Shown: piece by piece, positions 16,097 through 19,721 of the stretch
Layout: every line of letters begins with the position of its first letter
Numbering within the stretch: position 1 is the first letter of the stretch
Origin: an uncultured Phycisphaerae bacterium
Lineage (GTDB): Bacteria; Planctomycetota; Phycisphaerae; UBA1845; PWPN01
Assembly: GCA_938005315.1 (NCBI GenBank)
Contig: CALLOB010000042.1
Coordinates: forward strand, 1-34,263
Direction of reading: 5' to 3'
DNA length: 34,263 nucleotides
Position numbers and translations under genes: made by a program
The notes under the pieces: model-generated
Database searches by the model: none
What the model was told of the DNA's origin: nothing
The model's input: only the letters and a program-made list of their open reading frames with translations

Positions 16097-16597
16097 CTAC
16101 TTCTTCGCCGGGGCCACGATAGTGATCAGGCGTTTGCCCTCGTGCCGGGGCGGACGTTCGATCCTGGCCCTCTCACCCAGGAACTCCAGAATCTCGTTGA
16201 CGATCTGCAAGCCCAGATCCTGGTGAAACCTCTCCCGCCCGCGGTAGATCATGGTGAACTGGACCTTGTCCCCGCTCTCGAGGAACTCCACCGCGCGGTT
16301 GACCAGACGCTGGCGGTCGTGGTCGCCGATCTTGGGGTGAAGCCGGACTTCCTTGAGCTTCTGCTCGTGGTGCTTCTGCCGCTTCTTGCGTTGGGCATAC
16401 TTGAACTTGCCGTAGTCCATGATCCGGCAGACCGGGGGGCGCTCGGCAGGAGCGATCTCCACCAGGTCCATGCCCACCGCCCGGGCGCGGTTCAACGCCT
16501 CGTCGGTCGGCACGATCCCGATCTGCTGGTTGTTCTCGTCGATCAGGCGAACCGGGGATAGCCGGATCTGCTCGTTGCAACGAAGTGACTGTGCGAT
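16097..16597 (-). CDS. infC: Translation initiation factor IF-3, ATC start codon
   Basis: From ATC 16597 the protein has 166 residues, full length for IF-3: N-domain [20 protein letters not shown] (residues 6-25), linker, then C-domain [15 protein letters not shown] and [14 protein letters not shown] to the Lys-rich end. The start is fixed by AGGAGG 5 nt upstream and by stop codons TGA TAA just before it; the first ATG/GTG/TTG in frame is GTG 16513, which would remove the conserved N-domain. IF-3 binds the 30S subunit and rejects poor start codons, and the rare-start codon is the known autoregulation device of infC. It follows thrS with a 95-nt gap. No rpmI or rplT follows. Confidence 0.95.
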
Positions 16598-16602
16598 GGC
16601 TG

Positions 16603-16608
16603 CCTCCT
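16603..16608 (-). promoter_or_regulatory. Perfect AGGAGG ribosome binding site for infC ATC start
   Basis: AGGAGG (minus strand, 16608-16603) is followed by CAGCC and the ATC codon at 16597. A perfect site with 5-nt spacing is what a non-AUG start needs, so this site decides the start. Confidence 0.85.
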
Positions 16609-16636
16609 GATAGTCTTATCAACCTCCGCCGGACGT

Positions 16637-16692: not shown

Positions 16693-18861
16693 TTATGCCT
16701 CAGCCGACGGCGCGCTTTCAACTACCCTTCGCCCGACTTCGTCCAGACAGCGGGCCGCGAAATCCTCCAGCCGGACCGTCCCCAAGCCCTTGCCCGACCG
16801 ATCGTTGACGTTGACCGTGCCCTCGGCGGCCTCCTTCTCTCCGACAACCAGGATGTAGGGCACCCGCTGCTGACGGGCGGCGTGCTTCTTGGGGCCGATC
16901 CTGTCGGGCGAAACGTCCACTTCAACACGCAAGCCTTTTTCTAAAAGGAGGTTGCACACTTTATGGGCGTAATCGGCGCTCTTCTCGCTCACCGAGGCCA
17001 CCACCACCTGTACGGGGGCCAGCCACAAGGGGAAAGCGCCGGCAAAATGTTCGATCAGGATGGCCACGAAGCGCTCCAGGCTGCCGAACGGCGCCCGGTG
17101 GATCATCACCGGACGGTGGGGCGCGTTGTCCGATCCGATGTAACTTAAGTCGAATCTTTCCGGCAGGTTATAGTCCACCTGAACGGTCCCCAGCTGCCAG
17201 TCCCGGCCGATGCAGTCCTTGACCACGAAATCGATCTTGGGCCCGTAGAAGGCCGCTTCGCCGAGCTCCTCGGTACAGGCCATGCCGCTGGAACGCACCG
17301 CCTGGCGGACCGCGTCCTCGGCCAGACGCCAGTTCTCCGGGCTGCCGACGTACTTGTCGCTGGCCGGATCCCGCAGGCCGATGCGGACCCGGTAATCTGT
17401 CAACTTCAGCAGATCCAGAACCTTGCGCGTCAGATTGACGCAACCGGTGATCTCCTCGAGCAACTGGTCGGGGCGGCAGAAAAGGTGGGCGTCGTCCTGG
17501 GTGAACCCGCGGACCCTGGTCATGCCCGACAGCTCGCCGCTCTGCTCCATGCGATAGACGGTGCCGAACTCCGCCAGCCGCAGCGGCAGGTCGCGGTAGC
17601 TGCGCGGCTCGGAGGCGTAAATGCGGATATGGTGCGGGCAGTTCATGGGCCGCAGGAGGTATCCGTCGTGTTCGACCAGCAGTTCGCGCACGGCCTGCTG
17701 GTTGGCCGAGGCCCGGCCGGCGGCGGGTTGCCACCGGGCCATCAGCCGCTCGTGCACCGCCGGATCGGTTTTGCGGATTTCCTCCAGCAGGCGATGCTCC
17801 TGCGGGCTGGGGCCGTCGGCGTCGCCCCGGGCCCGGACCGCTTCCCAGAGGTCGTTGAGCAGCCGGGCGATGTCGCCCTCGTACAGCGGCGGGAACTGGG
17901 CGTCCTTGTAGTAGGGGAAGTGGCCGCTGGTGCGGTAAAGGTCCAGCCGTCCGATCTGCGGCGTGTAGACCATGCTGTAGCCGGCGCCGATGAGCAGCTC
18001 GCGCATGAGCTTCTCGAGCTCGTGGCGCACCACCGCCCCTTTGGGCTTCCACAACACCAGTCCGCCGCCGACCAGCGGGTCGATGACGAAGAGCCCCAGC
18101 TGCCGCCCGAGCTCGCGATGGTCGCGCCGTCTGGCCTCTTCCAGCCGGCTCAGGTACGCCTTGAGCTCCTTGCGCGTCGGCCAGGCGGTGCCGTAGACGC
18201 GCTGCAGCTGCTTCTCGCGCTGGTCGCCGCGGTAGTAAGCCCCGCTGACCTGCATGAGCTTGAACGCTCCGACCCGGCCGGTGCTGGGCACATGCGGCCC
18301 GCGGCACAGATCCTCGAAATCCCGGCCCGGCCGGGTGCCGGTGACATAGAAGCTCAGCGGTCCCTCGGCCCGCTCGGCGTTATCGATCTTGTAGCGGTTG
18401 CCCTCGCGCCTGAGACGGGCCATGCCCTCCTCGCGGTTCATCTGGCAGCGGGTGAAGGGTCGATCCTCGCGGACGATCTCGGCCATGGCCGCCTCGATGG
18501 CCGGGAAATGCTCGGGCGTCAGCGGCTCGTCCAGGTCGATGTCGTAGTAGAAGCCGTTCTCGACCGGCGGGCCGTAGACCAGTTTGGTTTGGGGAAACAG
18601 CCGGCAGATGGCCTCGGCCATGACGTGGGCACAACTGTGTCGCATGACGTACAGGCTGTCGGCGTTGTCGGCCGATGGGGTGAGGATCTCCAACCGGCAG
18701 TCGCCCTCCAGAACGTGCGTCAGATCGACGATGCGGCCGTCGACCTTGCCGGCGATGGCCGCCTGGGCCAGGCGTGGTCCGATCCTTGCGGCCACGTCCG
18801 CCACCGTGGCACCGTGCGGCACTTCGATCTGCCTGCCGTCCGGCAGCGTCACCTGGGGCAT
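16693..18861 (-). CDS. thrS: Threonyl-tRNA synthetase with an insertion in the catalytic core
   Basis: The product is 722 residues (the E. coli enzyme has 642). Order: TGS domain (MPQVTLPDGRQIEV), editing N2 domain (MRHSCAHVMAEAICRLFP with Cys/His motifs), class II core with motif 2 (FGTVYRMEQSGELSGMTRVRGFTQDDAH), zinc ligands Cys408 (PMNCPHH), His in DDAHLF and His in VMIHRAPFGSLERF (motif 3), then the anticodon domain (PLWLAPVQVVV to KHAARQQRVPYILVVG). About 60 extra residues lie at roughly 328-398 just before PMNC. ATG 18861 fits the TGS start; GGGAG lies about 9 nt upstream. It charges tRNA-Thr and is transcribed with infC. Confidence 0.95.
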   Translation of the reverse strand: MPQVTLPDGRQIEVPHGATVADVAARIGPRLAQAAIAGKVDGRIVDLTHVLEGDCRLEILTPSADNADSLYVMRHSCAHVMAEAICRLFPQTKLVYGPPVENGFYYDIDLDEPLTPEHFPAIEAAMAEIVREDRPFTRCQMNREEGMARLRREGNRYKIDNAERAEGPLSFYVTGTRPGRDFEDLCRGPHVPSTGRVGAFKLMQVSGAYYRGDQREKQLQRVYGTAWPTRKELKAYLSRLEEARRRDHRELGRQLGLFVIDPLVGGGLVLWKPKGAVVRHELEKLMRELLIGAGYSMVYTPQIGRLDLYRTSGHFPYYKDAQFPPLYEGDIARLLNDLWEAVRARGDADGPSPQEHRLLEEIRKTDPAVHERLMARWQPAAGRASANQQAVRELLVEHDGYLLRPMNCPHHIRIYASEPRSYRDLPLRLAEFGTVYRMEQSGELSGMTRVRGFTQDDAHLFCRPDQLLEEITGCVNLTRKVLDLLKLTDYRVRIGLRDPASDKYVGSPENWRLAEDAVRQAVRSSGMACTEELGEAAFYGPKIDFVVKDCIGRDWQLGTVQVDYNLPERFDLSYIGSDNAPHRPVMIHRAPFGSLERFVAILIEHFAGAFPLWLAPVQVVVASVSEKSADYAHKVCNLLLEKGLRVEVDVSPDRIGPKKHAARQQRVPYILVVGEKEAAEGTVNVNDRSGKGLGTVRLEDFAARCLDEVGRRVVESAPSAEA

Positions 18862-18943
18862 GATGATCCACTCCCGCGGCCGGGGGCCGGCCGGCTGAAC
18901 ACCCCCGGGTCCCTGAAGCAAGAACGGCACGGAACCGCCGCCG

Positions 18944-19000
18944 GCGCACGAGACGGGTCTCGACAACAACGTCGAGCCGCCGCTTCACTCCGTCGTGCGC
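18944..19000 (-). promoter_or_regulatory. Alternative hairpins in the thrS leader (candidate attenuator)
   Basis: In RNA order: region 1 GCGCACGA (19000-18993, inside the leader reading frame), region 2 CTCGAC (18976-18971), region 3 GTCGAG (18964-18959), region 4 TCTCGTGCGC (18953-18944). Regions 2 and 3 form a 6-bp hairpin; CGAGA of region 3 can instead pair with TCTCG of region 4 (5 bp); region 1 can pair with TCGTGCGC of region 4 (8 bp, perfect) enclosing the 2-3 hairpin. The 3-4 pairing excludes both others. No T run follows, so control of translation or Rho access would be likelier than intrinsic termination. All pairings are direct; function is inferred. Confidence 0.45.
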
Positions 19001-19014
19001 GTCGTGGGTTTCAT
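18985..19014 (-). CDS. Threonine-rich leader peptide upstream of thrS
   Basis: The frame encodes MKPTTRTTE and a TGA stop: four of nine residues are threonine, all encoded by ACG. It lies between the thrS promoter and thrS, 123 nt before the start codon, in the same direction. The ribosome site is weak (GGACGGC before ATG, with AAGGGA further up). The codons sit in an 8-bp pairing element (see the hairpin entry), the layout of amino-acid leader peptides such as thrL. Chance cannot be excluded because the run comes from a CACGACG direct repeat. Confidence 0.45.
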   Translation of the reverse strand: MKPTTRTTE

Positions 19015-19117
19015 GCCGTCCGGTCGTCCCTTATGCACCTGACGGAAGCCTGCGGCTGCAATCTGCAGGGCCCCGTTTCCGGCCCCCGACCTCCGGCAGA
19101 CCTCCATATTGAATGCC

Positions 19118-19145
19118 ACTATATTCGGCGACGGCAGACCGTCAA
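19118..19145 (-). promoter_or_regulatory. Promoter of thrS-infC
   Basis: On the minus strand TTGACG (19145-19140) and TATAGT (19123-19118) are 16 nt apart, each matching five of six consensus bases. It predicts a leader of about 250 nt before thrS. This is the best sigma-70-type promoter in the window. Confidence 0.65.
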
Positions 19146-19173: not shown

Positions 19174-19387
19174 GGCCCCGTCTCTCGCAGGGCGCCGCTC
19201 CGTCGGGGCCGCGAAAACAGGCGTGAAGAAGGCCGTCAGCAGGCAAGCGACGCTTCTGTGCGCAGGCAGATGCGGACGCGACGGAGCGCGTCCCTCCCAG
19301 GACGCGGGACAGGACGCGACGGCGCGAGCCCCTCCTTACTCTTGCCGCCGCCGGGACGATTCCCCGCCACAGCTGGGGCAGATGTAT

Positions 19388-19526
19388 GGGTGTCCTTTAC
19401 TTTAGCCTTGGGTGTCCTTTACTTTAGCCTCCGGCCCGATGCTCGGCGATTCTAACCTCTGCGGTATATGGGTGTCCTTTTCTGCTTTTGTTTTCTGCTT
19501 TTGGTGGGTGTCCTTTTCTGCTTTTG
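19388..19526. repeat. AT-richer repeat cluster with four copies of GGGTGTCCTTT
   Basis: Two 20-nt copies of one type (19388-19407 and 19410-19429, GGGTGTCCTTTACTTTAGCC) and two 21-nt copies of a second type (19470-19490 and 19506-19526, same 11-nt core then TCTGCTTTTG) lie in direct orientation, with one extra partial TTTTCTGCTTTTG at 19491-19503. The composition contrasts with the GC-rich surroundings. The cluster runs into the end of the LacI-type frame. Spacing is too short and irregular for CRISPR. Dispersed copies elsewhere in the genome would be expected if it is a mobile repeat. Confidence 0.75.
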
Positions 19527-19721
19527 GAGGTTGCGGGCCCAGCTGTTGGGGACGTAGTTGAGCTCCCGGGCGGCGTCCAGCACCCGGCGGGCGGTGACGG
19601 GGGAGATGTGGCGCTTCTCGGCTTCGCCGCGGAGGACGATGCAGACCGTGGTGCGCGACAGGCCGAGCCGCTCGGCGATGTCGCGTGTGGTGGCACGTGG
19701 GGGTGAAGAATCGGTGCTCAT
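19452..19721 (-). pseudogene. LacI-family regulator reduced to its DNA-binding domain
   Basis: ATG 19721 (GGAGGGG upstream) gives 89 residues. Residues 1-64 are a textbook LacI-type headpiece: TTRDIAERLGLSRTTVCIVL helix-turn-helix, then ISPVTARRVLDAARELNYVP and NSWARNL. A full LacI protein is about 340 residues; here the frame passes into the repeat cluster and encodes only repeated QKQKRTP-like text before stopping. The sugar-binding domain is lost, so it cannot sense an inducer. It is the last gene after the fucosidase, which it may once have controlled. A free headpiece without dimerisation would bind DNA weakly. Confidence 0.7.

Follow-up and report, generated by a model that had tools for sequence, protein, structure and literature searches.

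Expression of thrS, the gene for threonyl-tRNA synthetase (ThrRS), is known to be controlled by T-boxes or by an operator to which the enzyme itself binds. In the DNA analysed here, a 34,263-nucleotide contig of a 3.8-Mb planctomycete assembly (the window), a short threonine-rich frame lies between a promoter and thrS, raising the question of whether this gene is instead governed by translation of a leader peptide. Searches of window and leader with Rfam models (cmscan, at gathering and at permissive thresholds) gave no match to the T-box RNA model or to Thr_leader, and no hairpin resembling the anticodon of tRNA-Thr, of the E. coli operator type, is conserved among relatives.

The leader frame and hairpin of the window

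The sequence bears out the promoter, the nine-codon frame, a perfect 8-bp pairing and the thrS start as first described, coordinates included (Table 1). The region holds two sites of the promoter's quality where 0.2 would be expected, and inspection by eye also showed CTTGAC..TATA-type sites ahead of the leader in relatives. From the promoter's position, transcription is predicted to start at ∼19111 on the minus strand, ahead of the frame and not downstream of 19014. The frame (ATG AAA CCC ACG ACG CGC ACG ACG GAG TGA, 19014 to 18985) occurs once in the window, lacks a strong ribosome site and encodes threonine at codons 4, 5, 7 and 8, by ACG in each case.

Table 1. Features of the thrS leader and the genes that follow it, in window coordinates
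Feature	Position	Strand	Basis
Sigma-70-type promoter, TTGACG-16-TATAGT	19118-19145	-	Consensus scan, 10/12 matches
5' arm, terminator-like hairpin	18993-19021	-	Folds; covariation in 27 relatives
Leader frame MKPTTRTTE	18985-19014	-	Sequence; kept in relatives
Nested hairpin CUCGAC-GUUGUU-GUCGAG in terminator loop	18959-18976	-	Fold
3' arm, terminator-like hairpin	18922-18951	-	Folds; alignment of relatives
U-rich tail UUCUUGCUUC	18915-18924	-	Folds; weak in window, UUUUUUU in several relatives
thrS Shine-Dalgarno-like GGGAG	18871-18875	-	Sequence
thrS, threonyl-tRNA synthetase	16693-18861	-	Translation; ATG at 18861
infC (IF3)	16097-16597	-	Translation of 3' part and sequence upstream

Folding of the leader showed that the 8-bp pairing, GCGCACGA (19000-18993) with UCGUGCGC (18951-18944), makes up only the inner segment of a longer stem. 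The base of this stem is formed by 19021-19012 with 18931-18922, contains the leader AUG and is followed by UUGCUUC, while the inner 5' arm (19001-18993) falls within the Thr-Arg-Thr codons; the 3' arm is thus made up of the 8-nt element (18951-18944) and a basal part (18931-18922). The second hairpin of the original prediction exists (18976-18959), but rather than a defined competitor of the 8-bp pairing it looks nested in the terminator loop. The U tract after the stem (UUCUUGCUU) is weaker than the U runs of relatives. Since the fold of the window's leader is not unusual compared with shuffled sequences (z -0.33), this single sequence proves little.

The infC gene lies downstream of thrS and presumably belongs to the same operon. 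Its start appears to be an AUC at 16597, after AGGAGG (16590-16610, minus strand), in a GCC-AUC-GC context also found in relatives of the family; infC start codons are known to be unusual, with which an AUC start agrees. ThrRS itself is 58-76% identical to its relatives within the order. A stretch of ∼70 residues from GHFPYY to MNCPHH (residues ∼327-398, window ∼17670-17880) is unaligned in several relatives, which suggests a lineage-specific insertion. Elsewhere in the window, short tandem direct repeats around TGGGTGTCCTTT (19387-19526), comprising one pair of identical 22-nt copies and another set that has diverged, lie where a truncated LacI-like frame (19452-19721) ends.

Conservation of the leader in the family, the order and the class

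We sampled 13 species of the window's family, of which 10 had a usable region upstream of thrS, the other three being masked, cut or truncated. The short element is present in 8 of these 10, with the frames MKPTTRTTE (window), MANGTESMTRTTL, MIGIALTTRTTA (TTG start), MRSTTRTTAS, MRSVTRTIA, MNRIGIESTTTTTA, MTPTIA and MTTLSPETRTVR, and in all eight a long hairpin has the frame within its 5' arm. One genus of the family (L002, L003) has no leader and a promoter close to thrS. In several members the 3' arm ends in GUGCCG and is followed by UUUUUUU, a run found after the hairpin in L004, L122 and L125. Frames with at least two threonines in six codons occur in 10/10 usable upstream regions (1.7 expected), with at least three in 6 of 10 (0.3 expected) and with at least four in 4 of 10 (0.0 expected). 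It is this conservation in the family that lifts the leader above chance, the single fold being unremarkable.

A covariance model built from eight leaders (R1) detected the element ahead of thrS in additional families of the order; weak R1 matches in G111, G057 and G025 do not adjoin thrS and were taken as chance. With a second model (R2), 32 matches at E<1e-4 were obtained across 397 genomes of the class, 30 of them directly upstream of thrS, the exceptions being one in G105 and a truncated 41-nt match in G232. The G105 match (L230, G105:C681:2007-2118; E 5.7e-6) carries a WTTRCTS-stop frame and lies near a mqnA-like gene, upstream of a pdxB-like gene, rather than beside thrS. In an alignment of 27 relatives, a single 13-bp helix has 86% of its cells paired and compensatory changes in 10/13 pairs, giving a covariation score of 0.54 compared with 0.26 in shuffled alignments and no more than 0.22 when partners were slid. 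The outer stem columns vary freely, with compensation. A U-rich tail is present in this alignment and in most relatives the U run stands directly at the stem base, so that a stem with a U-rich tail, the form of an intrinsic terminator, precedes the structural gene, the tract being weak in the window.

Altogether, 36 thrS leaders with short frames were collected, spread over five families of the order. At least two threonine codons are present in 31 of them (as in MTRTTL, MRSTTRTTAS and MTRTTC) and one in 5/36; both models include the threonine codons and the frames were picked by hand, so that these counts are partly circular. The tests on raw upstream regions are free of this circularity: across the order, at least three threonines in six codons were found in 13/79 members compared with 1.35 in shuffles. 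As in known attenuators, codons of the regulated amino acid are thereby over-represented in the short upstream frame. Family f8 has minimal frames (MTRTTC, MTRQTC, MTRSTC, MTCTRC, MTRTA, MTHTTA, MTHATC, MTRRTC), and most have threonine at codon 2, a second threonine at codon 4 or 5 and a stop near a fixed column; the second threonine shifts between codons 4 and 5, so the residue stays while its position moves. Columns 27 (A) and 28 (C) of the alignment, which belong to codon 2, are 93% and 100% conserved. The third bases of the threonine codons vary (ACG 50, ACA 28, ACC 4, ACT 2), ACG and ACA making up 78/84 (93%) against 48% in thrS coding regions, a comparison that is indicative only, the leaders being related. 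On these alignments and counts, the leader frame is under selection for threonine. At L025 and L028 the hairpin is kept with only a short frame containing one threonine. The loci of family f4 (L018, L023, L147, L169, L181 and others) have threonine codons near the end of the frame (VRGVET, also given as TRGVET; MSTRGATT; MLRTRGTRTL) and a hairpin that no clear U run follows, possibly reflecting a different output step.

Comparison of relatives thus shows the frame, its threonine codons, the stem, the U tail and their position before thrS. The conservation of frame and pairing had been set beforehand as a test, together with the constancy of the threonine codons; frame and pairing are kept across relatives, the codons do not change freely, and the alignment that the original prediction had proposed revealed conserved threonine codons and a covarying stem. 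Its central proposal of a threonine-responsive leader peptide on thrS is supported to that extent.

Forty further members of the class were sampled outside the window's order (L233-L272, upstream of thrS). Frames with at least four threonines in six codons precede thrS in 16/40 of these compared with 0.3 expected in shuffles, whereas no other amino acid exceeded 2/40 in the same test and the reverse strands gave none. These poly-Thr frames (MFTTTTTTRC, MARTTTTTTTTQTASCG, MTTTTTTTPANRPRG, MFSARPATTTTTTTASAR) come from many families, in many cases precede a terminator-like hairpin, and resemble classical attenuators. A control found class-wide would accordingly take a compact form in the window's order. 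By eye, no comparable poly-Thr frame was found at the thrS loci examined from other planctomycete classes and from Verrucomicrobiota.

A predicted attenuator and its alternatives

Our favoured explanation, to which we give a probability of roughly 0.83, is that thrS, and probably infC with it, is controlled by ribosome-mediated transcription attenuation that senses charged threonyl-tRNA. From the conserved parts we infer translation of the leader, termination and a response to threonine. RNA polymerase would start near 19111, and a ribosome would enter the short leader frame with the downstream arm still to be transcribed. When Thr-tRNA is scarce, the ribosome would stall at the first threonine codons and cover the base of the 5' arm, so that the terminator could not close and polymerase would read into thrS. 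When Thr-tRNA is plentiful, the ribosome would finish and leave, allowing the long stem to fold and transcription to stop at the U-rich tail. A separate antiterminator would not be needed.

The geometry of the 36 leaders was examined on the assumption of a ribosome footprint reaching 15 nt upstream of the P site. With the A site at the first threonine codon, 0-7 basal terminator pairs remain free in 35/36 leaders, compared with 12-21 when the ribosome stands at the stop codon, which fits a model in which an early stall masks the 5' arm directly and the end of translation frees the terminator. Static folds of the masked window leader lose the terminator at every threonine-codon stall. With the ribosome held at the stop codon, too, the optimal fold lacks the terminator, and 18951-18944 pairs instead with sequence preceding the frame; the final step would therefore rest on release of the ribosome.

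The same sensing by a leader peptide could act on translation or through Rho instead of intrinsic termination, as the original prediction supposed from the lack of a T run. The window's poor U tract (UUCUUGCUUC) and the f4 frames, whose threonines are kept in a hairpin lacking a clear U run, are in keeping with such an output. We nevertheless consider it unlikely: most relatives end the same hairpin in a U run right at the stem base, which points to an intrinsic terminator, and the window's hairpin ends ∼50 nt before thrS with no evident pairing to its ribosome site. The poor T run of the window looks like a local weakening rather than the design.

Autoregulation by ThrRS, in which the enzyme binds an anticodon-like loop of a tRNA-like operator and blocks expression as in E. 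coli, is very improbable, even though thrS is controlled in this way elsewhere and UGU happens to occur in the loop of the window's nested hairpin. Neither the sequence (CUCGAC/GUCGAG) nor the loop of that hairpin is conserved in relatives; what is conserved is an in-frame ORF of threonine codons, with its start and stop, and the terminator stem. That an ordinary terminator or hairpin should coincide with a chance threonine-rich frame fits the unremarkable single-sequence fold, but is scarcely credible given the conservation of both frame and hairpin ahead of thrS in five families, and poly-Thr leaders across the class that lie far above shuffles.

Relation to known systems and significance

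The attenuator proposed here resembles thrL of E. coli, where a threonine-rich leader peptide precedes a transcription terminator and starvation stalls the ribosome. However, thrL controls biosynthesis genes rather than thrS, and has a long poly-Thr/Ile peptide with a separate protector and antiterminator. The pheST operon of E. coli (leader pheM) is likewise a synthetase operon under leader peptide attenuation, but it senses phenylalanine, and the 5' arm of its terminator is not formed by the leader frame as it is here. In the pyrBI attenuator of E. coli the leader frame also runs into the terminator hairpin, which the ribosome physically blocks; pyrBI differs in sensing UTP by polymerase pausing and in its much longer leader. 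The translational operator of E. coli thrS, a tRNA-like mRNA bound by ThrRS, controls the same gene but has neither leader peptide nor terminator. Codon choice differs as well, thrL having eight ACC codons (PMC1183508) whereas the leaders here use ACG or ACA at 78 of 84 positions. In bacilli, histidine leader peptides have been predicted before hisZ and a hisS paralogue (PMC2965389), so that there, too, control by leader peptides is predicted close to a synthetase gene outside the Proteobacteria, with another amino acid, phylum and architecture.

A literature search of incomplete coverage found no report of a threonine leader peptide on thrS. The article of Lopatovskaya et al. 2010 (Mol Biol 44:128; cited in PMC4833913) reportedly treats attenuation of aminoacyl-tRNA operons and may bear on novelty. 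To our knowledge, amino-acid attenuators have hardly been described in Planctomycetota. We think it reasonably likely that these Planctomycetota possess an undescribed, class-wide control of thrS (and infC) by threonine leader peptides, with a minimal design in one order, where the frame often spans only 5-9 codons and doubles as the terminator's 5' arm, a separate antiterminator is absent and the control codons favour ACG and ACA. Such a leader would be a third, ribosome-based control of thrS beside T-boxes and the ThrRS operator. With infC after thrS, the supply of threonine could also affect initiation factor 3. The presence in one class of both poly-Thr leaders and minimal MTRTT-type frames bears on how small attenuators can be and how they evolve.
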